Positions 16,331 through 42,179 of a DNA stretch of 64,000 bases are shown here, one piece after another. Below the pieces are notes generated by a model, which worked only from the letters and a program-made list of their open reading frames with translations, did not search any database and was not told the origin of the DNA. Numbering within the stretch: the stretch's first letter is position 1; each line of letters starts with the position of its first letter. This DNA comes from Roseicyclus marinus (GTDB lineage: Bacteria > Pseudomonadota > Alphaproteobacteria > Rhodobacterales > Rhodobacteraceae). A program made the position numbers and the translations under genes. The stretch is from NCBI RefSeq assembly GCF_036322625.1, contig NZ_AP027266.1, forward strand, positions 1,057,001 through 1,121,000, read 5' to 3'.

Positions 16331-16333
16331 CTT
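16283..16333 (+). repeat. attL core: 51-bp tRNA-Phe 3' end direct repeat
   Basis: This 51-bp segment, from the anticodon stem of tRNA-Phe to three bases past the CCA, is identical to 42129-42179. The sequences diverge on both sides (T versus G before, AAC versus CCC after). The same orientation and the adjacent integrase make it the left attachment site. Confidence 0.95.
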
Positions 16334-17711: not shown

Positions 17712-17726
17712 CGGCTCTCCCCCTGA

Positions 17727-17951
17727 TCAATTCACACTCGACACCGAACCATCCCTCTCCCTCTCGTCCCCGCGCAGCTTCGTGGCGCGCTTCTGGAACC
17801 GCTCCCAGCCCGTCATGGTCAGCAGGCGGGTCTTGGGCGTGATCTCGACGAATTCGAGCCGCCCGTCGTTCATCAAGGCACGAATCTGCGCCGTGCTGAG
17901 CCCCACAAGAGCGCCAAGTTCCTTGGGCGACAGCAGCTTTTCCTGTGACAA
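17727..17951 (-). CDS. Small excisionase-like HTH protein
   Basis: A 74-residue protein with the HTH segment LLSPKELGALVGLSTAQIRALMNDGRLEFVEI and a basic tail (WERFQKRATKLRGDERERDG). The layout resembles helix-turn-helix 17/excisionase proteins. The start is taken as TTG 17951 because a strong AAGGAGAGG lies 7 bases upstream on the minus strand; ATG 17987 would run through that site. It precedes the AlpA-like gene by 15 bases in the same operon. Confidence 0.6.
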   Translation of the reverse strand: MSQEKLLSPKELGALVGLSTAQIRALMNDGRLEFVEITPKTRLLTMTGWERFQKRATKLRGDERERDGSVSSVN

Positions 17952-22535: not shown

Positions 22536-22780
22536 TTGTACAAATTCCCCAAGATATGGTCGCCGAGCAAATGCTCACCGCTTACGCTTAAGTTTCTTGA
22601 TTTGCGCAAACAACTTCAAGGCGCTTTCTTTTGCACTATTCACCTCAGAGCATGTGCTCGTCATTTATCAAGGAAACTAGCTGCGGTCTTTTGAGCGTCC
22701 GCCTTTCCGACATGACGCAACTGGAATGCCACACCTGCATCGGACAGCTTTCCGCCCATTTCGATCTCCGACCATCAACC

Positions 22781-25700
22781 CTAGACACCATACAACTCCC
22801 GCAGCTGCTGCGGCACCGGCTCGGCAATATCCCACTGCACCGTGATCGGCGCATCTCCCTCCCAGCCCGCGAATTGCACCGGTCCAGCGTAGCGGAACGG
22901 GGCTGCGCGCCCATCGCGCAGTTTCGATTTTCGAAGGAACAGGTGAACCGTCCAGCCAGGTTCTACGCCCGAGATGATGCGACCGCGCATGTCGTCGCGG
23001 CGTGTGCTGGTCTGGGTTTGCCAGACAAAGCGCGTGGGGCTCGCGAATTGGTCGGCGTAATGGCTGCCAACGGACATGCTGCCCTTGTCCATCGTTACCA
23101 GAAGGATCATCGCCCGCACGCCCTTCAGGACCACGATACCAGCGTTCCATGATCCGGTGTTGAACACCGCCCCGAAATGCGGCGCGATCTGGTCGCGCTG
23201 GTATTCCTGCCAGAGGCTCAGACCTCTGGTCGGGGCGACCGGTGAGGGGGCGGCCTCTTCGGCGGCTTCCACCAGGCCGGTAGCCTCGGGAATGTCATAG
23301 GTCACATCCCGCGCCTGGAGATATCGCAGGAGCCGCCAGTCCACGAGTTCCGAGGCGAGCGCGGTGAGGGCCGTGGTCTCGCCCTCGGCAAACGTGGTCT
23401 CGAACGTGCCCGGCCCCAACTGGAACCAGTCCGTCTCGCCCAGGATCTTGAGCGGTTGCTGCATCAGAAGCGTGCGCAGACGGGGCGCATCGTCAGGGTC
23501 GACGCTCAGGTCCGTCTTTATCTGCGGGTTGCGCCGGGCGAGACGGGCAACGCGCTCCACCAGATCGGTCAGCGCGATCCGGCCTGGGAAGGCTCCAGCT
23601 TCGATCATCGCGCGCAATACCAGCATCTTGTAGCTGCGGGTCATGCGCGTCGTCTCGATCTCGTCCAGAAGCGCGCGATGCGCAGTCCAGGCGCTGCGCT
23701 GCGCCTCCGACAGGTCGCCCATGTCGGCCACGAACCCCAGCCAGCCCGCATGCCCTGTGCGACCGGGGTTGAAGAGGGCGTGCTGCACCTCGGAGGCTGT
23801 GGGCCGTGTGCCGTGGCGCTCGCGGAAATCGCGGTAGAAGGCGGCCAGTTCCTCGCCGTCGCGCGGCTGGCGGATCAGGGACCGCAGTATGTCGAGCGCC
23901 TGCAGGTCATAGGTCACCTCGCAGCCTACCGGGAACTGGATCAGCTTGTCGGTCAGCCGCTCCAGCGCCAGCCGCAGCGCGCCGTCGCCAGCGCCCAGCT
24001 TGAGAAGCGTGCGGAACTTGGTCAGGAAAATCCGGTGGTTGCCGATATAGTCGATGACGGCCAGATGCGTTTTTTCTGCCGAGCGGCGCAATCCACGGCC
24101 CAGTTGCTGCAGCCAGATCACCGGGCTTTCGGTCGGGCGCAGCATCAGCACCGTGTCGATCGAGGGCACATCGACACCTTCGTTGAACATGTCGACAGCA
24201 AAGACGATGTCGAGACCGCCGTCCTCCAGCGCCTTCAGCGCGCTGGCGCGGGGGGCGGAGGTGTCGCCCGAATGGACCGCCACGGCGCGCAGACCGCGCG
24301 CTTGCGCGAAATCGGCCATGAAATCGGCGTGGCGGCGGGAGACGCAGAAGCCGATCGTCTTCTTGCCACCGCGTTTCGCGAGCTGTTCGAGCGCGTTTTC
24401 GGCGCGGGCCTGGGTTGCGACCGCTTCGGTCAGCGCAGCCTCATCGAACCGCCCGCTGCGCCAGGGGATCTGGGAATACTCGACCGGATCGGGCACGCCG
24501 AAATAGTGGAAAGGTGCCAGAAGCCCCCGGTCGATGCCCGACCAGAGATCGCATTCATAGACGAGGTTTTCTTCGCACAGCCCCAACAAGTCGCCACCAT
24601 CGCTGCGGTCGGGTGTGGCGGTCAGGCCCAGCAGAAAGCCAGGCTGGAAATGATCGATGATCCGCCGGTAGGTGGCGGCTGCCGCGTGGTGGAATTCGTC
24701 GACGACGATGTAATCAAACGCCTGCGGATCGAACCGGGTAAGATGCGCATTTCGCGCGAGAGTCTGGACAGAGGCGAAGATGATGTCAGCCTCGGCGTCC
24801 TTTTCCTCACCTGAGTAGCGCCCAAGCCGGGCGCGAGGCCGGACAGCGCGGAAGGCGGCCATGGCTTGGGTCAGGATTTCCTCGCGATGCGCGACGAACA
24901 GGACGCGGGCCGCATCCGCGCTGTCGAAAGCCGCGAGGAATGTCTTGCCAAGGCCCGTGGCCAAAACCAACAGCCCGGCACCATAACCCTTCGCTCGGGT
25001 CGCGCGCAGGGCCGCCAGCGCCTCATCCTGAACTTCGTGCGGGGTGGGGGCGATTTCCGGGGCCTCCAGTGGTGCGCCGCTGGCCGTGGGCAGGGGTGCG
25101 ATGCGACGCGCCTCGTAAGCGTCGATCCAGGCGGGCGTCAGCTCTGTGACCTCGGGCCGAGCGAGCAGCGCCTCGAAGGCCTCACGGGCGGCCAGAAGCG
25201 AGGCATGATCGACCGGATCGACATGACGCAGGTTCCATTCGATGCCGTCTGTCAGCGCCGACCGGGACAGGTTCGACGACCCGACGATCAGCGCCCCGCC
25301 GTCGCCCGCAAATGTGAACATCCAGGCCTTGGGGTGAAACGGGATCTGCGCAGCCCGAAACACATGCAGCCTGCGTGCGCCCTCAAGGTCGGCAATCAGT
25401 CGTAGCGCCGCCGGTTCCGTCACGCCCAGATAATCGCCGGTCAAGAGCCGCAGCTCGCCGCCACGGTCCAGCAGATCGCGCAGATGCGGCAGCACCAGCC
25501 TGACGCCGGAGGTCATCAGGAAGGAGACCGACAGATCGACGGCGCGCGCCCGATCAATGAGGGGGCGCAGATGGGCGTGCAGCGCATCTTCACCGCCCGA
25601 GATCAGCGGGCGATCATGGGGCATGCCCTGCAAGGGGCCGGGTGCCGCCAATGGCGGATCAAGGCGCAGGTGGACATGTCCGCCAGTCTCGACCAGCGTC

Positions 25701-25933
25701 ACCCGCGCGGTGGTGCCCTCGGTCTCGAGCAGGGTTTGCGCCGCCCCGATCCTGGCAGCAAGGGCCGCTTGATCTGCGGTGAAAAGCTCCCGCCAGCGAG
25801 CGACATGACGACGGGGCGCAAGGGCAAGACCCGCGCCGTGGCGGATCAGGATGACCTGGGCGTCGCATTCCACGATGGCGCTGGCGGCGGCATCGCAGAG
25901 AGGACAAGGCAGGTCATCTTCCTCGCCCCTCAT
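22781..25933 (-). CDS. HIT-like / phospholipase D-like / SF2 helicase / DUF3427-like fusion
   Basis: A 1050-residue multidomain protein. Residues 1-105: an HIT-like domain with CPLC near the start and GGHVHLRL, where the third His of HxHxH is Arg while the catalytic middle His remains. Residues 115-260: a PLD-like (HKD) nuclease with HPKAWMFTF and GSSNLSRSAL. Residues 300-640: an SF2 helicase with ATGLGKT (about 326), VDEFHHAAA (about 410), LGLTATPDRSDG and QLGRGLRRS. Residues 650-1050: a DUF3427-like tail with SLWQEYQRDQIAPHFGAVFN. The architecture resembles HKD-nuclease/SSL2 helicase proteins of defence islands. The start at 25933 overlaps the methyltransferase stop (ATGA), so the two are coupled. 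The function is presumably DNA/RNA attack on foreign nucleic acid, which is inference. Confidence 0.85.
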   Translation of the reverse strand: MRGEEDDLPCPLCDAAASAIVECDAQVILIRHGAGLALAPRRHVARWRELFTADQAALAARIGAAQTLLETEGTTARVTLVETGGHVHLRLDPPLAAPGPLQGMPHDRPLISGGEDALHAHLRPLIDRARAVDLSVSFLMTSGVRLVLPHLRDLLDRGGELRLLTGDYLGVTEPAALRLIADLEGARRLHVFRAAQIPFHPKAWMFTFAGDGGALIVGSSNLSRSALTDGIEWNLRHVDPVDHASLLAAREAFEALLARPEVTELTPAWIDAYEARRIAPLPTASGAPLEAPEIAPTPHEVQDEALAALRATRAKGYGAGLLVLATGLGKTFLAAFDSADAARVLFVAHREEILTQAMAAFRAVRPRARLGRYSGEEKDAEADIIFASVQTLARNAHLTRFDPQAFDYIVVDEFHHAAAATYRRIIDHFQPGFLLGLTATPDRSDGGDLLGLCEENLVYECDLWSGIDRGLLAPFHYFGVPDPVEYSQIPWRSGRFDEAALTEAVATQARAENALEQLAKRGGKKTIGFCVSRRHADFMADFAQARGLRAVAVHSGDTSAPRASALKALEDGGLDIVFAVDMFNEGVDVPSIDTVLMLRPTESPVIWLQQLGRGLRRSAEKTHLAVIDYIGNHRIFLTKFRTLLKLGAGDGALRLALERLTDKLIQFPVGCEVTYDLQALDILRSLIRQPRDGEELAAFYRDFRERHGTRPTASEVQHALFNPGRTGHAGWLGFVADMGDLSEAQRSAWTAHRALLDEIETTRMTRSYKMLVLRAMIEAGAFPGRIALTDLVERVARLARRNPQIKTDLSVDPDDAPRLRTLLMQQPLKILGETDWFQLGPGTFETTFAEGETTALTALASELVDWRLLRYLQARDVTYDIPEATGLVEAAEEAAPSPVAPTRGLSLWQEYQRDQIAPHFGAVFNTGSWNAGIVVLKGVRAMILLVTMDKGSMSVGSHYADQFASPTRFVWQTQTSTRRDDMRGRIISGVEPGWTVHLFLRKSKLRDGRAAPFRYAGPVQFAGWEGDAPITVQWDIAEPVPQQLRELYGV

Positions 25934-26523
25934 CGCTTGACCACCACAGCATTCACCCACAGTTCCGACGCGCGATCCGGGCGGCAATCGCGGCTTTCCC
26001 AGATATCAGGTTCGCCGAACACGCCGGATCGGTCGAGGAGCGCCGCCAGAGTTTCCGCCGTCATGTCGGTAAATCGGCGTCCGTCCTTCACCCGCTCGCC
26101 GGTGCCGCGCTTGAATGACAGGTAGAGCGCGCCGTCAGGAACCAGATGGTCGGCAAGGCGGTCGACGACTCCGGGCAGTTCCGCATCGGCCACATGCAGC
26201 AGCGAGGCGCAGGCCCAGATGCCTTCGAGCGAATGCTCCCAGGCGAAATCCTCGAAACGCATCAGTCGGGTCTCGACTGCCGAATGCGCTTGCGTGGCAG
26301 CCACCATGGCAGGCGCGGCATCGAAGGCCTTCACATCGTAGCCTGAGACGCGGAAAGCCAGCGCATCGCGCCCCGACCCTGATCCGGCATCGAGAATACG
26401 TGCTGGACCATCCGCCCGCGCAGGCACAGCCGCCAGAAACCGTTCCCGCGCATCCGACATATCGACGTCGCGCGTGGTGGCGATGAAGCCATTCGCGTTG
26501 CTGTCGTAGTAATTGGTCAACAT
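25930..26523 (-). CDS. Class I SAM-dependent methyltransferase
   Basis: A 197-residue methyltransferase with motif I ARILDAGSGSGRDALAFRVSGYDVKAFDAAP (SAM-binding GxGxG and the acidic Asp at the end of strand 2) and motif IV-like GIWACASLLHVA. It resembles TehB/UbiG-type small-molecule methyltransferases rather than DNA methyltransferases: the NPPY or DPPY motif of DNA amino-methyltransferases is absent. It is the first gene of a minus-strand operon, coupled by ATGA to the HIT-PLD-helicase, and divergent from the RecQ-UvrD fusion. In a defence setting it could make self-marking or a small-molecule signal, but neither is shown by the sequence. Confidence 0.85.
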   Translation of the reverse strand: MLTNYYDSNANGFIATTRDVDMSDARERFLAAVPARADGPARILDAGSGSGRDALAFRVSGYDVKAFDAAPAMVAATQAHSAVETRLMRFEDFAWEHSLEGIWACASLLHVADAELPGVVDRLADHLVPDGALYLSFKRGTGERVKDGRRFTDMTAETLAALLDRSGVFGEPDIWESRDCRPDRASELWVNAVVVKR

Positions 26524-26672
26524 GGGCTCCGATCTGGCTCTTTCAGCCGTATCTTCTCAATAAATCATGGGTTTGACCAGGTGATGAAAAGGGGTCGTGA
26601 GCACCAATTTCTTCGGGATGGCGGCCTGACCAACACCCAGCTCTCGTCCGCAATGCGCTTGGAGGACTAGGT

Positions 26673-26701
26673 TTGACACAAATGTCCCGTTTAACGATCA
26701 T
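26673..26701 (+). promoter_or_regulatory. Candidate sigma70 promoter of the exonuclease-RecQ-UvrD gene
   Basis: A perfect TTGACA (26673-26678) is followed after 17 bases by GATCAT (26696-26701, 4 of 6 matches to TATAAT), about 75 bases upstream of ATG 26777. It lies in the 253-bp divergent region to the methyltransferase. The region is visibly more AT-rich than its surroundings. Confidence 0.5.
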
Positions 26702-26776
26702 TTTTGCTGACTTGCTTGTGTTTGGTCATGGAAACGTATCCTTTGTTTCCAATCGGTTCCGGAGCTTGGTTAAACC

Positions 26777-29700
26777 ATGGAAGAAAGGCATGGCGCGTTG
26801 TTGTCGCGATGCTTGGCTGTCGATCTCGAGGTCGACCCAAGCACTGCCCGCGTCTTTGCCATGGCCGCGGTTCGTCACGATGACTGCCGTGTCCTGATCA
26901 CGCACGGCGAACCGAGCGTCCGCCAGCTTGACGATCTCGAAGCCGCCATAAGCGACGTGGACCACCCGATTGGCCACAACTTTCTCAGCCATGACATGCA
27001 GCACCTGATCGCTGCGAGGCCACGCCTTTCGCGGATGATGGACGCGCCGATCGACACGCTCTGGCTCAACCCGCTCGCCTTTCCGCGCAACCCGTATCAC
27101 CATCTGGTCAAGCATTATCAGGATGGTCGCCTCGCCAAGGGGCATGTCAACGACCCCGAACTGGACGCAAGGCTGGTGTTCGAGGTCTTGGCTAACCAGC
27201 TCGATGCCTTTGCCACCCTGAAGAAAACCCAGCCCGATGCCTTGGCCGCCTATCACTATCTCACGACGCGGATGGAGCGGGCAGCGGGCTTTGATGCTGT
27301 CTTTGCCTATGTTCGCGCAGCGCCTTGTCCAAACGAAAACGAGGTACATGCGGCCCTGCATCGAATGCTGTCCGGCAAAGCTTGCCAAAAGCGGATCGAC
27401 CAGACGCTGGGCCGCATGTCCAACCCGCGCAATGGCTGGGCGATGGCCTATGCGCTGTCCTGGATCACGGTGGCGGGCGGGGACTCGGTCATGCCGCCCT
27501 GGGTTCGTGCACAGTTCCGGGAGGCTTCCCTGATCGTGCGCCATCTGCGCGACACCTCGTGCCGCGATCCCGGCTGCAGCTGGTGTGCAGAACAGAATGA
27601 TCCTGTGCGCGCGCTGCAGCGATGGTTCGGCTTTGATGCCTTCCGCCCGGAACCCGTGGACCCCGAAGGCCGCCCGTTGCAGGAGCGTATCGTCGACGAA
27701 GGCATGTCCGGCAAAAGTCTTCTGGGCATCTTGCCGACCGGCACAGGAAAATCACTGTGCTATCAGGTGCCTGCCCTGTCGCGCTACGACAAGACGGGTG
27801 CCCTGACGGTTGTGATCTCGCCCCTTGTCGCGCTCATGGCCGACCAGGTGCAGGGGATGGAGCGGGCGGGGATTTCCTGCGCCGTGACGATCAACGGCAT
27901 GATGTCGATGCCGGAACGGCAGGATGCGCTCGACAAGGTGCGCATGGGCGATGCAGGCATTCTCATCATCTCGCCCGAGCAGCTACGCAGCACTTCGATC
28001 CGTTCGGTTCTGGCCCAGCGGGAGGTCGGGTTCTGGGTTGTTGACGAGGCGCATTGCGTCTCGAAATGGGGCCATGATTTCCGACCCGATTACCGCTATC
28101 TCGGGCGCTTCATTCGCGAGTTCTCCGGTGATCAGACGCCCGCGCCGATCACATGCCTGACCGCGACCGCCAAGCCCGAGGTGGTGGCCGACATTGTCGA
28201 ACATTTCCGAACGCGCCTTGGCGTCGATCTGCTGACGCTGGATGGCGGGGCATCGCGCCCGAACCTGACCTTTGCGGTCCGGCCCACGACCAAGCCAGAG
28301 AAGCTGGCGCATGTCCTGTCCACAATCGAGGAATTCCTGCCCTCCGACGGGCGCTCCGGGGCCGTCGTCTATTGTGCCTCGCGCAAAGAAACGCACCGCG
28401 TGGCCGAGTTCCTCGAGGCCCAGGGCATGGATGCCGCCGCCTTTCATGCCGGGCTTGGGGCGGACGAGAAGAAAGAGGTGCAGGAAAAGTTCCGGGTGGG
28501 CGATCTGCGTGTGATCGCGGCGACCAATGCGTTCGGCATGGGGATAGACAAGCCCGACATCCGCCTTGTCGTTCATGCCGACATTCCCGGTTCGTTGGAA
28601 AATTACCTGCAGGAAGCCGGGCGGGCCGGGCGGGACCGGAAGGATGCCCATTGTGTCCTGCTTTTTGCCGCCGATGACATCGAGAACCAGTTCCGCCTGT
28701 CCGCCAGTTCCCGCCTGCAACGCCACGAGATCGGCGCAATCCTCAAGGCGCTGCGACGGATCGACGAGCGAACCAAGAAGACAGGCACGATAGTCGCCAC
28801 CTCGGGCGAAATCATCCGCTCCGAAAAAGACCGTGAATTCGACCGGGACAGCGCGACCGACGACACGCGCGTCAAGACGGCGGTCTCCTGGCTGGAAGAA
28901 GCGACGCTCGTCTCGCGCGAGGAAAACCGGGTGCAGGTTTTCCCGTCCTCGCTCCGCACCCGAACGCTGGACGAGGCGCGCGCGCGTCTGGCCACCGCCG
29001 AGATCACCGAGACCTATCGCAAGCAACTGCTCGACATCATCGCGCATCTGATGTCGACGCCCGCTGACGAAGGCGTGTCGACCGACGATCTGTCCTCAGC
29101 CTGCGGTCTGGCCCCCGGTGCCCTTTCCAAAGCGATGGCTGACCTCGAGAGCCTCGGCCTTGCGCGAAACGACGTGGCAATGACGGTCTTCGTCCATGTC
29201 GGCGTGGCCCAGGCCTCGGCGGCCCGTCTTGCCGATGCGGCTAGACTTGAGGTCGATCTGATCCAGCTCATGCAGGAACTGGCGCCGGATGCCGACGACA
29301 GGGTGCCCAACCCCCTGCATCTGGCCGAGACATGTCAACGCCTGCGCGACCGGGGTCATGCGACTGCACGGCCCGACATCGTGGACAAGCTCCTGCGGGG
29401 CATCGCGCGGGATGGACGGGGGCAGGATGGCGGTAAGGGCAACATCAGCCTCAGGACTGCCAGCCGCAACACTCTGCTGGTCACTCTTGAGCGCCCCTGG
29501 AAAACGGTTGCGCAGACTGCGGAACTGCGCCGCGCGGCCGCCGGTCTGTTGCTCGAACACCTGATTGGTCGCCTCGACAAGGGCGCGCGCGGCAAGGATC
29601 TGCAGGTCGACACTACCGTGGGCGATCTGCTCGCGCAGATTCAGCAGGATGCTCTTTTGCAGAGCAGCGGCATCCGCGACATGACTAAGCTGCTGGAGCG

Positions 29701-32365
29701 GTCGCTCCTGTGGCTGCACGAGCAAGACGTGGTGACGTTGGGCAAGGGCCTGACCGTGTTCCGTCCGGCGATGACCATCTGCCTGAACCCGAAAGGCGGG
29801 ACTTTCACACAGGCCGATTTCTCGCCCCTCGAAGATCATTACGCCGAACAGACGCTACAGACCCATGTGATGGCGACCTATGCCGAAACGGGCCTGTCCT
29901 CCATGCCCGACGCGATCCGCCTGTCCGAGGATTACTTCCTGCTCAACAAGGACCAGTTCCTCAAGCGGTGGATGCCCGGCAAGGCAAGCCAGATCCGCCG
30001 CCAGACCACCGGCAAATCCTGGAAATCCATCGTCGAGGATCTGGGTAACAAGACGCAACAGGAGATCGTAACCGATGATCGGGACCGCACCAATGTCCTG
30101 ATCCTGGCCGGTCCGGGGTCGGGCAAGACACGGGTTCTGGTCCACCGGATCGCATACCTCTTGCGGATCAAGCGCGAGGATCCGCGCGGCATTCTCGTGC
30201 TGGCCTACAACCGCCATGCCGCCGCCGAAATCCGCGCCCGGCTGCGCGCGCTGGTGGGCGATGATGCCGTGGGCGTGACCATTTCGACCTGTCACGCGCT
30301 GGCCATGAAACTGGTCGGTGCGAGTTTCGCCGGGGTGCAGGCCGCGTCCGAAGATTTCGATACGGTCGTGATGGAAGCGGTGCGCCAGCTCAACCCCGAA
30401 GGCCTCACGAAATCCGAGGCGGAGGCCCAGAGGGAAGCCCTGATCCAGGGCTATCGCTGGATCCTGGTCGATGAATACCAGGACATCGGCCCGCAGGAAT
30501 ATGCGCTCATCGCCGCCGTGGCCGGGCGCACGCTGGAAGACGCCGACCTCAAGCTCAGTCTCTTCGCGGTCGGGGACGACGATCAGAACATCTACGCCTT
30601 CAGCGGTGCATCGGTCGAGTACATCCGCAGGTTCGAGGAGGACTATAAGGCAAGGCCGGCGTTCCTCGTGGAAAACTACCGATCGACAGCCCACATCATC
30701 GATGCCTCCAACCACGTGATTTCGAAAGCCTCGGCCCGGATGAAGCGTGATCACCCGATCCGGATCGATGCGGCGCGGCTGAAGCGCCCCGTAGGGGGGG
30801 CTCTGGAACAGGCCGATACAGTCGCCAAGGGGCGGGTTCAGCTACTTGACGTGCCGCCGGGCGACATGGCGCAGGCCGCTGCCGCGGTTGACGAACTCAT
30901 CCGGCTGTCGCGCCTCGATCCGGACTGGAGCTGGAACCGCGCCGCGGTGATTTCGCGGACATGGCATGCCCTCAACGCCGTGCGCGCCTATGCCGAGGCG
31001 CAGGGGATCAAAGTCGAGATGGCGAACGAGGACATGCCCAACATATGGCGCCTGCGCGAAACGCAGCGTCTGGTGGCGGGGCTGCGTCAACGCAAGGCGG
31101 CGTTGCTGTGCATCCAGGATATTCTCGACATCCTCAACGAACAGCCTCTGAACCGATGGATCAGCCTTCTGGCGGAAGGGATCGCCGATCTGGCGCGGGA
31201 ATTGAACACCGGCACCATGCCCGTTCCAGACATCATCGAGTGGATCGCCGAGTGGGCGCGCGATACGAGGGGCCAGCAAAGGGGTCTGCTCTTGTTGACG
31301 GCGCACCGCGCCAAGGGCCTCGAATTCGACCACGTGGTGATCTTGAACGGCGATTGGCGCAATCCGTCGCGAAACGAAGACCCGGATGCGCCGCGGCGCC
31401 TGTTCTATGTGGCCATGACCCGCGCCCGTCAAAGTCTGACGGTGCTAACCCAAGGGCCGCATCATCTGCTGGACTCTGACGCACCTTCGGTTCTGCGCCG
31501 CAAGGTTGCCGTCGAGGCGACGCATGAGCTTCCCGCTGCCGACATCTATGTGTTGCCAAGCCTGAGATTGGTCGATCTCTCATTTGCCGGGCGCAAACAC
31601 GTCAGCCAACATAGTTTAGCAGCTATCCGCGATGCAAAGGTGGGTGATCCGCTGACGCTTGAGCAGCGGGACGGGAAATGGGTGCTGATCGATGCCGGCG
31701 GACGATTGCTTGGTCGGATGGTCAATGCATGGCAACTTCCACCGGGACATGCCTTCGACAAGGGCCAAGTGGGTGCTATCGTCAATTGGCGTAAGGTCGA
31801 CAACAAGGAAGAGTTTCACGGTACTCTGAGCCGCGATAGCTGGGAAACCGTTCTGCCCGAGTTGATCTTTAGGCCGCTGCGCGAAGAAACTCGCAATCGG
31901 CTACCTGTCGGTGAGCCTAAAGCGCGGGAACCCAAGACCCAACCTTTCGTCAATAACGCTGCAGTGGCGAAAAGCACAGAAGATGCGGTGTCCGACGCGC
32001 TCCAGGACGACCTCGCCCTTGTCGCAACGATCATCCAGGATGCTCTCTCCGCTGCAAATAGCTGGGAAGCGCTTGTCGCAAATCTAGAGTGCAAGGACAT
32101 CACGCTTATCCCTAAGAGCGGTGGGCTGGTCGTTGTAGACGCGAAAAGCGGGGCGGATATCTGCAAGCTTTCCGCGATCGGCTTTCGATATCTCGATCTG
32201 ATCAAGAGGTTCGGCGAGGGGTTTCCGGGCCATCCCGCGACTTGGTTGGTGGAGCGTGCGCTGTCAGATGGCTACACCGCCAAGGCACAATCCAAACCCA
32301 GAAAGGGCCGAAGAAATCGTAGAACCGGGCGGGGGGGCGATGACATCACTCTCGTTGAAGACTGA
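26777..32365 (+). CDS. Giant exonuclease-like / RecQ helicase / UvrD helicase fusion
   Basis: An 1862-residue protein joining three enzymes. Residues 1-200: a DnaQ-like 3'-5' exonuclease fold, with CLAVDLEVDP (DxE) and HPIGHNFLSHDMQ. A Cys-rich segment CRDPGCSWC (about 262) may bind metal. Residues 280-700: RecQ-type SF2 helicase with LPTGTGKSLCYQVP (about 318), VVDEAHCVSKWGHDFRPDY (about 421) and AGRAGRD. Residues 1080-1600: UvrD/Rep SF1 helicase with LAGPGSGKTRVL (about 1110), VDEYQDIGPQEY (about 1231), DDQNIYAFSGASVEY and YVAMTRARQSL (about 1543). Residues 1600-1862: a variable tail with a HIRAN-like feel (GRLLGRMVNAWQLP). Cytoplasmic DNA-processing role; likely anti-phage given its place. 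It stands alone in its transcription unit and has no frameshift. Confidence 0.9.
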   Translation: MEERHGALLSRCLAVDLEVDPSTARVFAMAAVRHDDCRVLITHGEPSVRQLDDLEAAISDVDHPIGHNFLSHDMQHLIAARPRLSRMMDAPIDTLWLNPLAFPRNPYHHLVKHYQDGRLAKGHVNDPELDARLVFEVLANQLDAFATLKKTQPDALAAYHYLTTRMERAAGFDAVFAYVRAAPCPNENEVHAALHRMLSGKACQKRIDQTLGRMSNPRNGWAMAYALSWITVAGGDSVMPPWVRAQFREASLIVRHLRDTSCRDPGCSWCAEQNDPVRALQRWFGFDAFRPEPVDPEGRPLQERIVDEGMSGKSLLGILPTGTGKSLCYQVPALSRYDKTGALTVVISPLVALMADQVQGMERAGISCAVTINGMMSMPERQDALDKVRMGDAGILIISPEQLRSTSIRSVLAQREVGFWVVDEAHCVSKWGHDFRPDYRYLGRFIREFSGDQTPAPITCLTATAKPEVVADIVEHFRTRLGVDLLTLDGGASRPNLTFAVRPTTKPEKLAHVLSTIEEFLPSDGRSGAVVYCASRKETHRVAEFLEAQGMDAAAFHAGLGADEKKEVQEKFRVGDLRVIAATNAFGMGIDKPDIRLVVHADIPGSLENYLQEAGRAGRDRKDAHCVLLFAADDIENQFRLSASSRLQRHEIGAILKALRRIDERTKKTGTIVATSGEIIRSEKDREFDRDSATDDTRVKTAVSWLEEATLVSREENRVQVFPSSLRTRTLDEARARLATAEITETYRKQLLDIIAHLMSTPADEGVSTDDLSSACGLAPGALSKAMADLESLGLARNDVAMTVFVHVGVAQASAARLADAARLEVDLIQLMQELAPDADDRVPNPLHLAETCQRLRDRGHATARPDIVDKLLRGIARDGRGQDGGKGNISLRTASRNTLLVTLERPWKTVAQTAELRRAAAGLLLEHLIGRLDKGARGKDLQVDTTVGDLLAQIQQDALLQSSGIRDMTKLLERSLLWLHEQDVVTLGKGLTVFRPAMTICLNPKGGTFTQADFSPLEDHYAEQTLQTHVMATYAETGLSSMPDAIRLSEDYFLLNKDQFLKRWMPGKASQIRRQTTGKSWKSIVEDLGNKTQQEIVTDDRDRTNVLILAGPGSGKTRVLVHRIAYLLRIKREDPRGILVLAYNRHAAAEIRARLRALVGDDAVGVTISTCHALAMKLVGASFAGVQAASEDFDTVVMEAVRQLNPEGLTKSEAEAQREALIQGYRWILVDEYQDIGPQEYALIAAVAGRTLEDADLKLSLFAVGDDDQNIYAFSGASVEYIRRFEEDYKARPAFLVENYRSTAHIIDASNHVISKASARMKRDHPIRIDAARLKRPVGGALEQADTVAKGRVQLLDVPPGDMAQAAAAVDELIRLSRLDPDWSWNRAAVISRTWHALNAVRAYAEAQGIKVEMANEDMPNIWRLRETQRLVAGLRQRKAALLCIQDILDILNEQPLNRWISLLAEGIADLARELNTGTMPVPDIIEWIAEWARDTRGQQRGLLLLTAHRAKGLEFDHVVILNGDWRNPSRNEDPDAPRRLFYVAMTRARQSLTVLTQGPHHLLDSDAPSVLRRKVAVEATHELPAADIYVLPSLRLVDLSFAGRKHVSQHSLAAIRDAKVGDPLTLEQRDGKWVLIDAGGRLLGRMVNAWQLPPGHAFDKGQVGAIVNWRKVDNKEEFHGTLSRDSWETVLPELIFRPLREETRNRLPVGEPKAREPKTQPFVNNAAVAKSTEDAVSDALQDDLALVATIIQDALSAANSWEALVANLECKDITLIPKSGGLVVVDAKSGADICKLSAIGFRYLDLIKRFGEGFPGHPATWLVERALSDGYTAKAQSKPRKGRRNRRTGRGGDDITLVED

Positions 32366-32719
32366 ACTTCGTTTCATGCGGATCGTAGTCAGGGCGGCGA
32401 CCACTGTGGGTACGGCTACTTCCGTGCCGTGACCGTTGGTGTGCGACCATCAAGGTGCATTTGTCGATCGCCGATCCGTGCTGACCGCTCAGGCCGCTGA
32501 TACGCGCCCTTGCATCTTCGAAACACGCCCTTAGTGCTGCTTCCCGACTACCAAGACCGTCCAGTTTTCGGCGTTGCGGTTTACATCAACGCCACATCGG
32601 CAAACCCGCAGCAGAGCGCAGAATCCGGTAATCGCATGCAACGGCGGGCAACTCGCTGTTGCGCCCGATTCTAGTTCCCGCCATCATCACCCTGCGGCTC
32701 TCTAGACGGTGGATTGACG
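32366..32719. other. Gene-free stretch (354 bp)
   Basis: No frame on either strand shows convincing coding sequence between the RecQ-UvrD fusion and the next gene. I see no clear hairpin terminator with a T-run. A purine-rich segment is absent immediately before ATG 32720, and an in-frame TTG lies six bases before it. The sequence may be decayed coding material, but no family is recognised. Confidence 0.6.
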
Positions 32720-34264
32720 ATGAAGGATTTTGGGCCGGGCTTCCCTGAATGGACTGAACTCGGCCAGGATGGCGGCCTCGATCCCCTTGGAATGCAACGC
32801 CCCATCGAAGCGATCTATCAATCCCTGCTGCCCGGCATCAGCACCATCACGCTTCGCTTCAGGTACTATTCGTTTTTCGTCTGGATGCTCGAAGTCTACG
32901 CAAGAGAGCAAGGAAACACCGATCCCATTGCATTCCGGGCGTTCCAGCGACGCTGTGAGACCCTCTTTGCCCTTATTGCTGCACGGGGCGCGACTGAATT
33001 GGGCGTTGCCGGGATAGACTGGGCGCAAAAGCAACTAGGCGACGTTCCGAACGATCCGGAAACCATCATCGACTTCTCCGTCGGGGCCGATCCGGACACG
33101 GACGTCGGCCAGCGCTACTTGCGCAATAAGGGCGGTGCTTTCGGCGGCATCTATGCCACCCAGATGTTCGAGATGGGCCTGATCACACTTGGCGATGATC
33201 GGAACCCGATTGCAGTCTGCACGAACCGCGCACTTCCACTGGCAGAGGCTTTCGCCGCGGAGATTGGCGAGCTCGGCACTGCATTCCTGCGCTGTGTGAA
33301 AGCCGGAACAGTGACGCTAGCTGATCTCGACCGGATGGCGCCGATGCAACCCTCAGAGATCGTGGCGGGCAGCGCCGAACATCGGCAGCTCGTCCAAGTG
33401 CTGCTTGGCCAGTTATCGCCAGCAATCGCGCCCGACAAGCTGCGAAGATCCACCGCAATTATGCTTCTGCAGCTCATTGGTGCGACGAAGGAGGTGCCGC
33501 GCGCCGAGGCCGTGAAATGGGAATGGTTCAGTGCTGGCCATCCGGAACCCGAACCCGCTCCAGCCATCGAGAACGTTCGCGTCATGTGGGCGCTTTATCA
33601 GGCATGTGATCTCATGCGGCTTGCCTATGAGAACATCCTCGATCTTGCCTTGGACATTCTGCAAGAAGCTGAACTGGGGCGTATGCCGCTCGGTGATGTG
33701 GTGACGGAATTGGTCGGCCTTGTCGACGTGCCCGGTGGCATGACTTGGCGGGACTACTCCGCGAGCCTGCTCGAAGGCTTGGATCCGGCCAAGGCCGCGC
33801 GGTTGGCTGACGAGCGCATGATCGAGGCCCGGGCTTCGGGGGATCGGGCAACGCGAATGCAATCTGTCGTGGCGCTTGTCGCGGCGATAGTCGAACGGGC
33901 GGTAGCCTTCGGCGAGTTGCTGGACAGCGCGCTGAATGCGCCGGACCACTTCCAGTCGCTGCGAACAGAAGTCAAATACCTGCAGGTGCGAGAGCAGGAG
34001 AATGCGCGGACTGTCCTTGTCGCCTTGGTTCGTGAACGTGTCCTGAAACGCCATCTCTGGGTGGCGTCGCGTAAGTTCCGCAACCAAAAAGCCTATACCT
34101 TCCTGATCGAGCCCGAGGAGGGTTTGCTGCGGTACAGAGATCGCTTCCGGGTGTCGCCAAGCAGCCCGCGCCTGGATCAAGCCATGCGGTTCCTTCGGGA
34201 CGTCAAGCTGATTGACGATGAAGGGCTGACCGAGATCGGCCGCGCGGAGCTTGATGCCGCATGA
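32720..34264 (+). CDS. DUF6361-like protein of a two-gene defence candidate
   Basis: A 514-residue, mostly helical protein. The N-terminal block DPLGMQRPIEAIYQSLLPG followed by ISTITLRFRYYSFFVWMLEV resembles the conserved start of DUF6361 proteins (LFPGTSTxQTRxRYF); this is by eye. No catalytic motif, HTH or membrane span can be picked out. A C-terminal segment FLIEPEEGLLRYRDRFRVSP is followed by a winged-helix-like FLRDVKLIDDEGLTEIG. The stop overlaps the PLD gene by four bases, so the two are translated together and probably interact. ATG 32720 follows an in-frame TTG at 32714. Its placement downstream of the RecQ-UvrD fusion suggests the same island module, but cotranscription is not shown, given the 354-bp gap. 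Confidence 0.7.
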   Translation: MKDFGPGFPEWTELGQDGGLDPLGMQRPIEAIYQSLLPGISTITLRFRYYSFFVWMLEVYAREQGNTDPIAFRAFQRRCETLFALIAARGATELGVAGIDWAQKQLGDVPNDPETIIDFSVGADPDTDVGQRYLRNKGGAFGGIYATQMFEMGLITLGDDRNPIAVCTNRALPLAEAFAAEIGELGTAFLRCVKAGTVTLADLDRMAPMQPSEIVAGSAEHRQLVQVLLGQLSPAIAPDKLRRSTAIMLLQLIGATKEVPRAEAVKWEWFSAGHPEPEPAPAIENVRVMWALYQACDLMRLAYENILDLALDILQEAELGRMPLGDVVTELVGLVDVPGGMTWRDYSASLLEGLDPAKAARLADERMIEARASGDRATRMQSVVALVAAIVERAVAFGELLDSALNAPDHFQSLRTEVKYLQVREQENARTVLVALVRERVLKRHLWVASRKFRNQKAYTFLIEPEEGLLRYRDRFRVSPSSPRLDQAMRFLRDVKLIDDEGLTEIGRAELDAA

Positions 34265-36624
34265 AGTACTTTGATGTATTCGCCGAAAGGGGATTTCATT
34301 CGGCATTTCTGACAACTTACGCCTTCGGGGCGCAGGCCTTCGAGGACGTGCCATTCTCGCGGCTGCGGGGGGCGGGCTGCCGGAACATCGTGATCCTTGC
34401 CGATCGGCAGATGGTCAACCAGAGCTTTGCAGAACTGGGCCCGCCGAAATTCGCGGGAAGCAGCTATCACCTTATCAAGGCAGATGCGCCGGGTGCCTTC
34501 CACCCGAAGATCACGTTGCTCGTCGGGGCGAAGAAGGGCCGATTGCTGATCGGCTCTGCCAATCTCACCGCGCTCGGCCTCGGTGGAAACAGGGAACTGG
34601 TCGCCAGCCTCTCTTACGGCGAAGACGCGACGGGCAATGCCCACCATTTTGCTGCGGCACTGAACTACATTCGCAGCAAGGTCCCCTCGGACGACCTTTG
34701 GTTTGCAACGGCGATGCAGCGGGCGCTTCGTTCATCGCCATGGCTGCGCGAGGTGATGGAAACCCCTTTCCCAGAGAAAGAGGCTGAGCTTGAAGTCTCC
34801 CTGCTGCATGATCGCCCGGACGCGACCATGCTGGACCAGATCGCTGCAAGCGTGGGCGATGATCGGATAGAGCGCTTGATTGTCGTGTCGCCCTATTGGG
34901 ACGTGAAACTCGAAGGGCTGGCAAGATTGAGGGCCATTATGGGCGACCCGCCGACGGATTTGCTGATCGACGCCGCTTCGACCTACTTCCCGAAATCCGA
35001 ACTGCCGCGGTTCTCGGACATCGGGATTTTCAAGGTCGACACGTCCGACAGCAAGAGGTTTGTCCACGCCAAGCTGGTGATTGCACGAGGCCAGGCATGG
35101 GATCACGTGATTTCGGGCAGCATGAACTGCACCTTGCCTGCCTTGCTCGGCCCAACGATTGTGCGCGGCAATGCCGAAGCCGGGATCTACAAACGCGTTC
35201 CGCCGGGAACGGCCCTCGCAGCGCTTGGCCTGGAGAGCTACCGCGATGCGCCGTTGCAGCCGAATGATCTCCACGAACTGACCTCCGCCACGGTGAAAAG
35301 TCCTTCGTGCGAGGCGTACACCGATGGCGGGACGATGATCTTGCAGTTGGGAAGGTTGGTCTGGAAGCCGCCAGCCAGTTTTGTGCCTGGATCGGCCACT
35401 GCCATCACCTTGCAGGACCGTGAAGAGGTCCAGTTCGGCAATCGGATTGACCTCGCGCAAGGAGGCGACACGGCTTGGCGCTTGGACCTCGAAGCAGGAC
35501 GTCCTAAGTCCGGAATCGTCCACTTTGCCGATGGCTCCGTATCCGCGCCGGTCCAGGTCATTGATCTCGATGTCCTCGCCGTCCGCACGCTACCACCCGC
35601 GCAAGGTCGCAAGAAGTCGCTGACGGATATCCTTGCCGAGGCGATGAACGAAGACCTGATCCTGATCGAGACCCTGAACCAACTGGAAGCACTGGAGCTT
35701 GAAGAAACCGGTGCGACTGAAGATCCTGCACCGAGGGCCTTTTCCCCTCCCTCGGCTGCATCAACCGAGCAGGTCCATGCGATCCTCTCCTATGACGAAT
35801 TCGTGCGGGTACGCAGCAGTGCAATGGCGCAGGGAAGCCAGATTTCGGACGGTTTTTTCGGTCGACACGACAGCCCGGCCAACACCCTGAGCGCGGCGCT
35901 CAACCGGATCATCGGCCTCGTCGGGCTGGATCTTGACGCTGATGAAGATCGAGAATTGAAGGCGATTGCGGCCATGGATTTCCGCATGACCGAACCTGCG
36001 GCACCGAGTGATGCCGTACCATCCACACCGCAAGCAGAACCGACGAAACCAGCAAAAGCCACGAAGCAGGCCGTGGCCACTGCGAAAAAGATGAAAGAGG
36101 CAGTCGACGCATTCGAGGCAAGATGCCGATTGCTGAGAGGCAAGCCGATCAGTACCGCGGAACTTGTGCGTCTTCGTGCTCTCCTCCAAATCCTGCTTTC
36201 CCATGCTCAACCGATCCGAGGGGCTGCGCTACCAACTCAGATCCTGCCAATCCATACCAAGGACAGCTACGACTGGCCGCGGCTGGTCGGACGGTTGCTC
36301 AAGCAGCATTTTGGCACCGCGCGGGCGCTGCAGAAGCTGCAGGTGGCGCAAGATGAGGGCGAGCAGAAGCGCGTACTTGAATACCTCGCCATGGCAGACT
36401 GGGCGGCAAAGGCGGCAGCGACTGCCGCAGCTTCACATTCCAAGACTGCTGACCTGCGTGGACCACTGGAAGGTCTGGCGAAAGCCCTAGCGGCGCAGGT
36501 CGCTTCGATCATCGGGACTGTCGACGAGGACAGGAGATATTTCGATGAATTTACAGCGCGGCTGGACGAAAGGTTTGCTGATCGCCTGGCGCTAATTCCC
36601 GGTACGCGCTTGTCATGTTCGTGA
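34261..36624 (+). CDS. Phospholipase D-like protein with two HKD motifs
   Basis: A 787-residue protein. The N-terminal third is a PLD-superfamily fold with two active-site motifs: FHPKITLLVGAKKGRLLIGSANLT (His about 81) and VHAKLVIARG followed by ISGSMNCT (His about 268). Both keep the HxK-Gx2N core, so a PLD-like dimer-in-one nuclease or phosphotransfer site is plausible. The rest has no recognised domain; around residue 600 a Lys/Ala-rich helix (ATKQAVATAKKMKEAVDAF) looks coiled. PLD-type nucleases with a second gene occur in DISARM and related systems, but no helicase or DUF1998 partner is coupled here. ATGA overlap with the DUF6361-like gene. No signal peptide, so a cytoplasmic role is expected. 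Confidence 0.8.
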   Translation: MKYFDVFAERGFHSAFLTTYAFGAQAFEDVPFSRLRGAGCRNIVILADRQMVNQSFAELGPPKFAGSSYHLIKADAPGAFHPKITLLVGAKKGRLLIGSANLTALGLGGNRELVASLSYGEDATGNAHHFAAALNYIRSKVPSDDLWFATAMQRALRSSPWLREVMETPFPEKEAELEVSLLHDRPDATMLDQIAASVGDDRIERLIVVSPYWDVKLEGLARLRAIMGDPPTDLLIDAASTYFPKSELPRFSDIGIFKVDTSDSKRFVHAKLVIARGQAWDHVISGSMNCTLPALLGPTIVRGNAEAGIYKRVPPGTALAALGLESYRDAPLQPNDLHELTSATVKSPSCEAYTDGGTMILQLGRLVWKPPASFVPGSATAITLQDREEVQFGNRIDLAQGGDTAWRLDLEAGRPKSGIVHFADGSVSAPVQVIDLDVLAVRTLPPAQGRKKSLTDILAEAMNEDLILIETLNQLEALELEETGATEDPAPRAFSPPSAASTEQVHAILSYDEFVRVRSSAMAQGSQISDGFFGRHDSPANTLSAALNRIIGLVGLDLDADEDRELKAIAAMDFRMTEPAAPSDAVPSTPQAEPTKPAKATKQAVATAKKMKEAVDAFEARCRLLRGKPISTAELVRLRALLQILLSHAQPIRGAALPTQILPIHTKDSYDWPRLVGRLLKQHFGTARALQKLQVAQDEGEQKRVLEYLAMADWAAKAAATAAASHSKTADLRGPLEGLAKALAAQVASIIGTVDEDRRYFDEFTARLDERFADRLALIPGTRLSCS

Positions 36625-36773: not shown

Positions 36774-38090
36774 TCATCCGTCATTTCCCGCGACCAATCG
36801 CGCCACCCTCTGCTCGAACCCCAGCCTGACTGAGGCCACCAGCCCCTCGGGAAACCCCGGCGGCATCTCCGCCAATGCCCCTTCAAATGCCCGCTCCGCC
36901 CGCCCACGAATGTCCTCGAACACCCCCGTCACCTGTTCACGAGAGAACCCCGCCGCCAGCGCCGTCTCCACGAAGTGCCGACCGTGGATGTCCACGACCC
37001 GGTAGTGCCGCCCTTGGCCGGCGCGCATGGCGAGCTTCATGTCCTTGATCTGCAACGTCCCCGCATCGAGCGAGGGTTGCACCGTCAGCACGTCGTAGAT
37101 CGGCGTCATGCGGAAACGCCCGCCGGGCATCAGGGCGATGCTGAAGTTCTTGGCGTGCCCGTCCGTCGCCCCGATCAGCCAGAACAGGATCACGGCCTTC
37201 AGGAAATCCGCCCGGTCGCGCTGCGGCTCGTCGCTGCCGGTCAGCAGATCGCAGATTTCCACGATCCCCGGACCGCCCTCGTTCTGGTACTTGCGGGTCG
37301 GGGGCACAGACAGGGCCTGGCAGCAATCCTCCTGCGGCAGGCGGATCAGGCGACCGTCCCGGGCGCGCAGCCGGTCGAAGCGCTCAACGACCAGCGCGCG
37401 CGTCCTTTCGAAATCCGCGATCTCGGTCCGTGCCACGGGCAGTCCGAAGCCCGCCAGCAGGCGCAGGCAGAAGTGTTCGTTCTCGATGCTGTCGGTCAGG
37501 TCCATGCCATTGGGCAGGCGGCCGATGGCGGGCTTAAGGATATGGGTCGTGGGCGTTGTGCCGGTCGGCAGAACCCATTGCCCATCGTGGAACAGGAGCG
37601 CGGTCTTTTCCTGTGCGCCGGCGACGGAGATGCGGAAATCCTGCTCGGCCCGGATGCCAAGCGGGGTCTGCGCCAGATCGCTCAGCATGGCGCCAATCCG
37701 AGCGTCGCTCAACGGCTCACCGGTCAGCGCGCGGGCATCGCCGGGCTCCTCGCCCTCGGGCAGGAATTGCAGCGCGCCCACGCAATCGCGCCCGATCCGC
37801 GCGAGCAGGCTGTAGGCGTCCACACCATCCGCGCCCACGCGTTCCGCCACACGGCGGCGGATCAGGTCGCTGTCGGGCAGCAGGTTCTCGAAAACCGCGA
37901 TCACGGGCGGGCCGGTGTAGCGCTCGGGCCGCAGGGGCAGGGCGCGCGAGATGGGCAGCGTGTTCTCCCAGGCCAGCCATTCCGCCGCATAGGTGAAGGC
38001 GAAGGCCCCGTCCGGCGCGCGGAAATATTGTCCCACGCGGCGGCCGTTCATGTAGACGTCGAGCGGCGCATAGGCGCGCTTGCGCCCCAT
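36774..38090 (-). CDS. hipA: HipA-family serine/threonine kinase toxin (module 1)
   Basis: A 438-residue HipA toxin. Canonical HipA phosphorylates glutamyl-tRNA synthetase, causing growth arrest and persistence. The kinase motifs are present: ISVAGAQEKTALL (ATP-binding P-loop-like), GATDGHAKNFSIAL (catalytic loop) and MTPIYDVLTVQP (metal-binding Asp). The N-terminal GRDCVGALQFLPEGEEP is typical. Its start overlaps the stop of hipB by one base (TGATG), so antitoxin and toxin are coupled. It is one of two such modules placed head to head. Confidence 0.92.
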   Translation of the reverse strand: MGRKRAYAPLDVYMNGRRVGQYFRAPDGAFAFTYAAEWLAWENTLPISRALPLRPERYTGPPVIAVFENLLPDSDLIRRRVAERVGADGVDAYSLLARIGRDCVGALQFLPEGEEPGDARALTGEPLSDARIGAMLSDLAQTPLGIRAEQDFRISVAGAQEKTALLFHDGQWVLPTGTTPTTHILKPAIGRLPNGMDLTDSIENEHFCLRLLAGFGLPVARTEIADFERTRALVVERFDRLRARDGRLIRLPQEDCCQALSVPPTRKYQNEGGPGIVEICDLLTGSDEPQRDRADFLKAVILFWLIGATDGHAKNFSIALMPGGRFRMTPIYDVLTVQPSLDAGTLQIKDMKLAMRAGQGRHYRVVDIHGRHFVETALAAGFSREQVTGVFEDIRGRAERAFEGALAEMPPGFPEGLVASVRLGFEQRVARLVAGNDG

Positions 38091-38341
38091 CAGAAGATGT
38101 CCTCGAGATCACGCGGGGTCATCTTGCTGCGCGGCACGATCCGCAGTTCGAGGTCGAGCGCTGCCAGCAGGTCGAAGATCGTCTCCGCCTTGGCGCCGCT
38201 GGCGCCGGTCTCGATGTTGGACACTGTGCGCTGCCAGACGCCCGCGCGGGCGGCAAGCTCGGCCTGCGTCAGGCCTTTGGCCTTGCGGGCGGCGCGCAGG
38301 GTCTGGCCGAGGTCCTTGGTGGTGCGGGCGATCTGATCCAT
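38090..38341 (-). CDS. hipB: HipB-type antitoxin with XRE HTH (module 1)
   Basis: An 83-residue antitoxin and autorepressor. The HTH core is GQTLRAARKAKGLTQAELAARAGVWQRTVSNIETG, and the C-terminal segment (LDLELRIVPRSK) forms the strand that dimerises and touches HipA. It precedes hipA with a one-base overlap. A palindrome (ATGATC-N4-GATCAT, 38366-38381) lies 24 bases upstream and is its probable operator. Confidence 0.9.
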   Translation of the reverse strand: MDQIARTTKDLGQTLRAARKAKGLTQAELAARAGVWQRTVSNIETGASGAKAETIFDLLAALDLELRIVPRSKMTPRDLEDIF

Positions 38342-38365
38342 CCGGGTAATCCTTTCCCGACGAAG

Positions 38366-38381
38366 ATGATCGGGAGATCAT
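38366..38381. promoter_or_regulatory. Operator-like palindrome of hipBA module 1
   Basis: ATGATC-GGGA-GATCAT is a perfect inverted repeat with 6-base arms, 24 bases upstream of the hipB start on the minus strand. A TATGAT hexamer (minus strand, 38377-38382) overlaps it and could be the -10 box. This spacing suits autoregulation by HipB. Confidence 0.55.
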
Positions 38382-38581
38382 ATGGAGTCAATATGTTCTG
38401 TGGGTGATAATTGCGATTTATGACCCCCCAGACATTTTCCATCTTCGTTCGTCTTTGCCTTCTGCCGGGCGAGTGGTGGTGGATCGTCGACCATGTACGG
38501 GATGGCTACTTGATGCCGGTCGGCATGTATTTCCTCTACGCACAGAGATTGAGAATTAGCCCATGGGCTATATGCGACGCT

Positions 38582-38605
38582 TATAGCTCTTGCGCTATAT
38601 TGACA
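38582..38605 (+). promoter_or_regulatory. Operator-like palindrome and promoter elements of hipBA module 2
   Basis: TATAGC-N6-GCTATA (38582-38599) is a perfect inverted repeat that overlaps a TATATT -10-like box (38596-38601) and a TTGACA (38600-38605). Further GCTAT copies lie at 38567 (GGGCTATA) and 38621 (GCTATC). It is about 36 bases upstream of the hipB start at 38635. If TTGACA is the -35, the transcript would start close to the ATG and be nearly leaderless. Confidence 0.6.
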
Positions 38606-38634
38606 AAATATCGTCCTTGAGCTATCAGGGAGCC

Positions 38635-38883
38635 ATGGACACCTTGCCCGCATACCCCATCCGAAGCCTCCGCCAAGCCGGGGCCGTGCTGAAGGCGCGG
38701 CGCGCGGCGCGGAAGATCAGCCAGAAGCAGCTTGGCGAGATGACGGGCACAGCGCAATCCACCATTTCCGACATCGAGAACGGAGTCGTTTCCGTCAGCC
38801 TCGATGTCTATCTGCGTCTTCTCGAGGCCCTCGGCGCGGAACTGTCCGCGACGGATCGTATAGCCGACCCTGGGCGGCCATAA
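38635..38883 (+). CDS. hipB: HipB-type antitoxin with XRE HTH (module 2)
   Basis: An 82-residue antitoxin with HTH core AVLKARRAARKISQKQLGEMTGTAQSTISDIENG and a C-terminal strand region (LRLLEALGAELSATDRI). The start is ATG 38635 with CAGGGAG upstream; an earlier TTG at 38590 would extend through the operator. It ends one base before the hipA gene. It differs clearly from the HipB of module 1. Confidence 0.88.
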   Translation: MDTLPAYPIRSLRQAGAVLKARRAARKISQKQLGEMTGTAQSTISDIENGVVSVSLDVYLRLLEALGAELSATDRIADPGRP

Positions 38884-38884
38884 A

Positions 38885-42128: not shown

Positions 42129-42179
42129 GGATTGAAAATCCTCGTGTCGGTGGTTCGATTCCGCCCCCGGGCACCACTT
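42129..42179 (+). repeat. attR core: 51-bp tRNA-Phe 3' end direct repeat
   Basis: The block is identical over 51 bp to 16283-16333. It includes the anticodon stem, T-arm and acceptor end of tRNA-Phe with CCA but no 5' half, so it is a pseudo-tRNA fragment and marks the right boundary of the element. Confidence 0.95.

Follow-up and report, generated by a model that had tools for sequence, protein, structure and literature searches.

The window analysed here is a 64,000-nucleotide stretch of the Roseicyclus marinus contig NZ_AP027266.1 (all positions below refer to it), and within it an integrative element at a tRNA-Phe gene carries stacked, separately mobile and probably defensive gene modules. 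Module 1 couples a small methyltransferase to a large protein with histidine triad (HIT)-like, phospholipase D (PLD), superfamily 2 (SF2) helicase and DUF3427 regions; module 2 is a fusion of a probable exonuclease with RecQ and UvrD helicases; module 3 is a DUF6361-like/PLD gene pair. The best explanation of the whole, to which a probability of about 0.5 may be given, is that modified foreign DNA is cut by module 1 and then degraded from its ends by module 2, with module 3 acting alone. Modules 1 and 2 recur side by side in related genomes, and module 3 is found without them. The genes are the following.

22781-25933, minus strand: module 1, HIT-like/PLD/SF2 helicase/DUF3427 protein (PADLOC, Pfam, match to 7clg, motifs)
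25930-26523, minus strand: module 1, TehB/UbiE-like class I S-adenosylmethionine (SAM) methyltransferase (profile and sequence matches)
26777-32365, plus strand: module 2, 1,862-residue probable DEDD exonuclease-RecQ-UvrD fusion (profiles, motifs, model)
32714-34264, plus strand: module 3, DUF6361-like/ZacA-like protein (start TTG 32714 or ATG 32720)
34261-36624, plus strand: module 3, ZacB-like protein (PLD motifs HPK..GSANLT and HAK..GSMNCT)

All five frames exist and are not chance frames, because full-length relatives are known; the named relatives belong mostly to Rhodobacteraceae and Roseobacteraceae. The original prediction, made from the bare sequence, had placed a possible undescribed defence locus at 25930-36624. 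Its frames are real, but the bounds leave the DUF3427 protein (22781-25933) outside, position 25930 being the end of the methyltransferase frame.

Modules 1 and 2 recur together

The survey covered 394 genomes of the family, nearly all from different genera, with the window's own genome included as G000; E-value limits were 1e-60 for module 1, 1e-150 for module 2 and 1e-30 for module 3. The nuclease of module 1 was found in 28 genomes, that of module 2 in 60 and that of module 3 in eight. All modules together occur only in G000 (1/394), which is also the sole genome that module 3 shares with module 2 or with module 1. Modules 1 and 2, on the other hand, are found together in 12 genomes against 4.3 expected (hypergeometric p=2.3e-4). 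Gaps of 298-933 bp separate them in eight of these 12, with divergent order in the window, G327, G331, G382 and G397, tandem order in G204 and G225, and convergent order in G376. Adjacency in two other co-carriers, G154 and G161, cannot be judged, because the genes there lie on contigs of only about 3-13 kb. The original prediction had proposed that co-occurrence of all five genes would indicate one system and co-occurrence in pairs three; the answer lies between. The full set does not recur, the methyltransferase/DUF3427 and DUF6361-like/PLD pairs do, and a further link, which had been left open, joins modules 1 and 2 and leaves module 3 unlinked.

Adjacency was compared with one large control (HsdR) and two small ones (PglZ and GajA). 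The type I domain HSDR_N was detected at 45 places, spread over 33 of the 60 genomes with module 2; in six genomes it lies on a module-2 contig, at the nearest 6.2 kb away. A distance below 1 kb to module 2 was observed for module 1 in 8/12 genomes as against 0/33 for HsdR (Fisher p=2.3e-6). PglZ is present in 5/60 module-2 genomes, in one of them on the contig of module 2 at a distance of about 36 kb, and GajA in 3/60, where the nearest, at 4.2 kb, is that of the window itself.

The ten linked rows of a module-2 tree (76 rows) fall into about five clades, requiring 6 changes where shuffles give 9.6. L045 is scored as unlinked but ends at a contig edge, and the tree alone cannot separate gains from losses; it is the three gene arrangements that speak for separate joinings of modules 1 and 2. 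Six duplicate loci (L113, L145, L146, L147, L175 and L181) were dropped from the locus counts and from this tree, as were module-2 pieces of fewer than 750 residues from the tree, and L016, a near-copy of the window, was counted among the module-2 loci and left out of both trees. Twelve module-2 match rows, from G377, G247, G390, G209, G212, G154, G115, G391 and G048, were left unopened, and L206-L208 are known from the match alone.

Module 1 resembles SauUSI-type restriction enzymes

The large protein of module 1 matches the PADLOC type IV restriction model mREase_IV (5.4e-111), and its residues 146-653 match 7clg at 4.2e-88 in a phmmer search against solved structures. An excerpt of PMC7913695 gives 7CLG as the deposited SauUSI structure, and excerpts of PMC3874153 and PMC7159879 propose that the DUF3427 domain of SauUSI recognises modified DNA. 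In module 1 this domain reaches 57.4 bits (Pfam cut-off 27.7), the PLD HxK is kept in 29/29 aligned rows, and Walker A and DEFHH are conserved. Like SauUSI, it combines a PLD nuclease with H(x)K, a homologous SF2 motor and a DUF3427 C-terminus, and the first two are among the marks of the SauUSI type. Unlike SauUSI, it has an extra N-terminal domain, a coupled small methyltransferase and, in this family, a frequent neighbour in module 2.

The N-terminal domain had originally been labelled HIT. Conserved CxxC and HxHxR motifs are present in 11/11 rows, and the profile weakly matches an Fhit domain (E=0.0083), but Pfam gave no match in 8/8 N-termini, and the third His of the HxHxH triad, which together with a significant profile marks the HIT superfamily, is Arg. 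On these motifs the domain can be called HIT-like at most.

The methyltransferase was rightly said to be coupled to the helicase/DUF3427 protein. Its stop overlaps the start of the large protein as ATGA at 25933-25930, and the pair is therefore coupled like that of module 3; the longest version of the large frame begins at 25987 (TTG), and the ATG at 25933 is the start coupled to the methyltransferase. SauUSI-type type IV enzymes are not known to have a protecting DNA methyltransferase partner. The enzyme of module 1 resembles TehB, small-molecule enzymes and an uncharacterised Rhodopseudomonas protein, and no DNA-methylase motif was seen by eye in its sequence. It adjoins the DUF3427 protein in 12/30 rows, plus one frameshifted copy (L119:10348-10934), and since the frames of modules 1 and 2 stay long at that locus, it may be dispensable. 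Two module-1 loci masked by a longer false frame, L122 of G370 and L131 of G305, stand outside the 30 rows.

Shorter module-1 relatives at L128, L129, L130 and L135 have beside them a protein of ~1,155 residues, of which the one member scanned gave weak PLD-family matches (DpdK, DrmC, ZacB) and helicase-like sequence. At L118:11791-13518 the neighbour of module 1 is a GajA of divergent sequence (29%), which parallels Gabija in the window.

Module 2 joins two helicases to a probable exonuclease

The fusion comprises a probable DEDD exonuclease (residues about 1-270), RecQ (about 274-750), UvrD (about 1090-1560) and a C-terminal extension. RecQ scores 314.2 bits with TIGR00614 (cut-off 219.8), and UvrD scores 137.6 bits with PF00580 and 61.6 bits with PF13361, both above cut-off; as sequence assignments, these two domains of the originally predicted exonuclease-RecQ-UvrD fusion are beyond doubt. 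Its first domain is probable. Four acidic residues, D16, E18, D73 and D130, are invariant in 15/15 rows and likewise in a second alignment of 23 rows, and the profile of the N-terminus matches the 3'-5' exonuclease DinG (E=3.2e-4). A single-sequence search of the PDB returned no significant match. An AlphaFold model of the N-terminus (mean predicted local distance difference test, pLDDT, 78.7) gave weak Foldseek matches, many of them DNA polymerase exonuclease regions and ExoX.

The layout parallels that of WRN, the eukaryotic protein in which a 3'-5' exonuclease is followed by RecQ in one chain, and common descent of the whole is not claimed; module 2 differs from WRN in adding a UvrD-type superfamily 1 helicase and the C-terminal extension, and in being bacterial and mobile. 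RecBCD/AddAB and MrfAB are helicase plus exonuclease systems. Module 2 would be like them in its working, with motor(s) and an exonuclease on one DNA substrate, but it is not a member: RecQ and UvrD stand in one chain, and neither DUF1998 nor a RecB-type nuclease was found in it. MrfB is described in an excerpt of PMC12458937 as a 3'-5' exonuclease.

In literature searches we recognised no listed paper on a defence protein of exonuclease-RecQ-UvrD build, nor one on a type IV enzyme that carries HIT and methyltransferase parts. Relatives of module 2 on plasmids reach gammaproteobacteria, cyanobacteria and Bacteroidota, and the plasmid records opened annotate the protein as RecQ helicase only. 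As roughly one family genome in seven carries module 2, a defence role would reassign a common gene.

Part of the C-terminal extension (31994-32266, residues about 1740-1830) resembles part of a 171-residue open reading frame (ORF) elsewhere in the genome, L201:6652-7167 (34% over 85 residues, 2.9e-8). The extension is missing in many relatives, which end near residue 1700, and forms a separate ORF in L021. At L022, L023, L036 and L041 a 1,963-residue protein is encoded on the same strand as module 2 and immediately upstream of it; the one member scanned matches the PADLOC models PDC-S37 (E=0) and Hhe (8.5e-163).

Module 3 is a cassette of its own

The two genes of module 3 overlap as ATGA at 34261-34264, and the DUF6361-like gene precedes the PLD gene in 7/8 family genomes, the eighth contig beginning inside the PLD gene. 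The coupling and the PLD label are as originally described, but DUF6361 remains below the Pfam gathering score (14.7 bits vs 25), and 2/10 members of the first protein's family match it at E<=1 (best 0.0023). The model of this protein is mostly helical (mean pLDDT 79) and gave no Foldseek match at E<=0.001; the profile of the PLD protein found no match to solved structures at 0.01. The two-gene layout is shared with ZacA/ZacB of PADLOC and with Pfam DUF6361, but the matches are weak and partial, with 28.2 bits over 25-115 of 396 for ZacA and 44.6 bits over 105-331 of 586 for ZacB. Literature searches, one of them swamped by unrelated words, found no paper describing ZacA/ZacB, and the count of papers for DUF6361 was 0.

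With mREase_IV fitting module 1 and ZacA/ZacB weakly fitting module 3, the earlier statement that the combination matches no named system was too strong. It holds for BREX, G000 having given no PglZ match; DISARM, Zorya and Druantia gave only partial shared-domain PADLOC matches such as DrmC (8 window proteins, for some the best 25 matches).

Natural alleles lack parts of the locus. The Marivita metagenome-assembled genome (L037) matches the window at 95.8% over 22743-32157 and then jumps to 36629. It is without module 3 and without the end of module 2, and in-frame stops follow residue 1702 of the fusion (L037:15100-15530); the missing end and the stops make it a deletion. In L112 (G231), 22751-26612 is joined to 36804-40205, modules 2 and 3 are absent, and HipA abuts module 1. 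Viral contig L202, conversely, matches 32565-36609 alone (92.9%); its module 3 has a tail protein (phrog_4271) and an endolysin-like peptidase as neighbours, and L204 is similar. In L205 no PHROG match was obtained for four neighbours of module 3, and no module-1 or module-2 protein was confirmed on viral contigs. Alleles without module 3 and viral contigs with module 3 alone therefore identify it as a cassette of its own.

Elsewhere, module 3 has relatives on plasmids. Those of Roseovarius have N-6 methylase genes as neighbours; in Sphingobium CAP-1 (L199:472-9460) the DUF6361-like/PLD pair comes after a DrmD-like SNF2 protein, and in Myroides it lies between hsdS and hsdR of a type I restriction-modification operon (L200:1-12695).

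Proposed mechanism and alternative explanations

Every biochemical step of the favoured explanation, and defence itself, we infer. Module 1 would belong, as a variant, to the modification-dependent restriction enzymes of the SauUSI type: by analogy with its family, the DUF3427 end may recognise modified foreign DNA, the SF2 motor translocate and the PLD domain cut. The HIT-like domain, together with the small methyltransferase, might add some nucleotide- or protein-directed step. Module 2, in which a putative WRN-like exonuclease-RecQ unit is followed by UvrD as a second motor, would load on broken or single-stranded DNA, unwind it and digest one strand, and this digestion could make the cuts of module 1 irreversible, much as RecBCD finishes the work of restriction enzymes. 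Module 2 would be autonomous, yet it repeatedly settles beside module 1. Module 3 is presumably a separate defence cassette in which a PLD nuclease is partnered by a mainly helical, DUF6361-like protein; phage-like contigs carry it too. Confidence in the link between modules 1 and 2 is moderate, and in the chemistry it is low.

It is tempting to go further and to see modules 1 and 2 as a composite restriction machine of an undescribed kind, put together repeatedly from genes that are mobile on their own: a type IV-like cutter, with the HIT-like domain and the methyltransferase as accessories, would pass cut DNA on to a two-motor WRN-like exonuclease. Taken jointly, these propositions are tentative and somewhat doubtful. 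Module 2 would then serve as a portable finisher for various cutters, for which the Hhe/PDC-S37-like proteins (4 loci) and HNH proteins (4 loci) beside it may be compared. If the pairing is functional, restriction would be built from interchangeable parts, a cutter and a portable DNA degrader, and the pair would offer a clear test of cooperation versus mere island sharing among neighbouring defence genes.

Several results weigh against the explanation in which module 1 cuts and module 2 degrades. No module 1 lies within 3 kb of 67/78 module-2 loci, although some of these end at contig edges, and in the 62 loci without module 1 whose surroundings were scanned the neighbours of module 2 are a mixture of restriction, mobile and housekeeping genes. 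An HNH protein recurs in 4 loci, and type I methylases and type II enzymes are found in 2 each; the scan took in 116/128 ORFs, with the largest left out, and a fair number of them are probably false frames. Module 2 can therefore stand alone, and the link to defence genes suggested originally, evident in the window, is mixed for module 2 elsewhere. Eight module-2 genomes of the class but outside the family yielded no module 1 at E<=1e-40, in a search that had no positive control and whose empty answer shows little. In the module-1 tree (30 rows) the linked label is scattered, with 7 changes, a value as low being reached in 35/500 shuffles, and the adjacent module-2 copy of G327 is a 401-residue piece, a longer copy lying elsewhere in that genome. 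As to the domains, the profile of the module-1 C-terminus found no match to solved structures, the SRA-like domain of 7clg included, so that on this profile the C-terminus is not detectably like that of SauUSI. The module-2 N-terminus has no significant Pfam match (best 0.02, in 2/15 sequences), and its model found nothing in Foldseek at E<=0.001 (PDB, BFVD). In DEDD exonucleases a fifth residue, usually His or Tyr, precedes the last Asp; module 2 holds Asn125 (>=90% of rows) at that position.

Some of these observations would also follow if the three modules were fully independent defence modules, with 1 and 2 brought together only by a shared preference for integration spots or islands. We regard this as a real possibility at less than even odds. 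The solitary module-2 loci agree with it, as do the presence of all modules on mobile or plasmid DNA and the lack of a module-1/2 neighbour in the eight genomes outside the family. It is harder to reconcile with eight of 12 co-carriers having the two immediately adjacent in three arrangements, while HsdR (33 genomes) and PglZ (5 genomes) never come within 1 kb of module 2. A role of module 2 in recombination or repair instead of defence, as a helicase serving mobile elements or the host, appears unlikely. RecQ and UvrD are repair families, the layout is WRN-like, housekeeping genes adjoin module 2 in several loci, and among the best 25 of the 86 PADLOC models matched, none covers both halves of the protein with its best alignment; such a role accords poorly with patchy presence (60/394), carriage on plasmids (19 records at >=80% query coverage) and repeated pairing with a restriction-type enzyme. 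A single five-gene defence system, suggested by the direct adjacency of the modules in the window and by a Ruegeria genome (L028, 74 and 71% identity) in which module 3 adjoins module 2 in divergent orientation, is already largely refuted and was rejected as highly improbable on its one occurrence in 394 genomes, the alleles without module 3 or without modules 2 and 3, and the two viral contigs with module 3 alone.

The integrative element and its other genes

The genome is a single contig of 3.55 Mb. Around the modules the window contains the following features.

16256-16330: tRNA-Phe gene (ARAGORN)
16283-16333, plus strand: left repeat of the element, the 3' end of tRNA-Phe and 3 bases beyond (perfect 51-bp direct repeat)
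16375-17730, minus strand: tyrosine integrase, just inside the left repeat (PF00589, E=2e-15)
18947-20764, minus strand: GajB, Gabija helicase (PADLOC 1.2e-237)
20751-22535, minus strand: GajA, Gabija nuclease/ATPase (PADLOC 1.8e-236)
36774-38090, minus strand: HipA toxin-like protein 1 (PF07804, 3.4e-51)
38885-40210, plus strand: HipA toxin-like protein 2 (PF07804, 1.3e-48)
42129-42179, plus strand: right repeat of the element (perfect 51-bp match to 16283-16333)

A tRNA gene, an integrase and flanking direct repeats, the marks of a tRNA-integrated mobile element, are all present, the integrase frame as listed possibly starting too early. The modules are therefore cargo of a 25.9-kb integrative element, with Gabija and the two HipA genes also inside; in kind it is ordinary, an integrated defence island. 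The G+C content is 59-66% over 17-37 kb and mostly about 67-70%, with dips, in the first 16 kb and last 20 kb. Of the neighbours named in the original prediction, Gabija was recovered, and so was the HipA part of HipBA, in two copies. The canonical GajAB at 18947-22535 is a separate system, unlinked to module 2 elsewhere. At 41530-41629, close to its right repeat, the element contains a 38-nt direct repeat in three imperfect copies.

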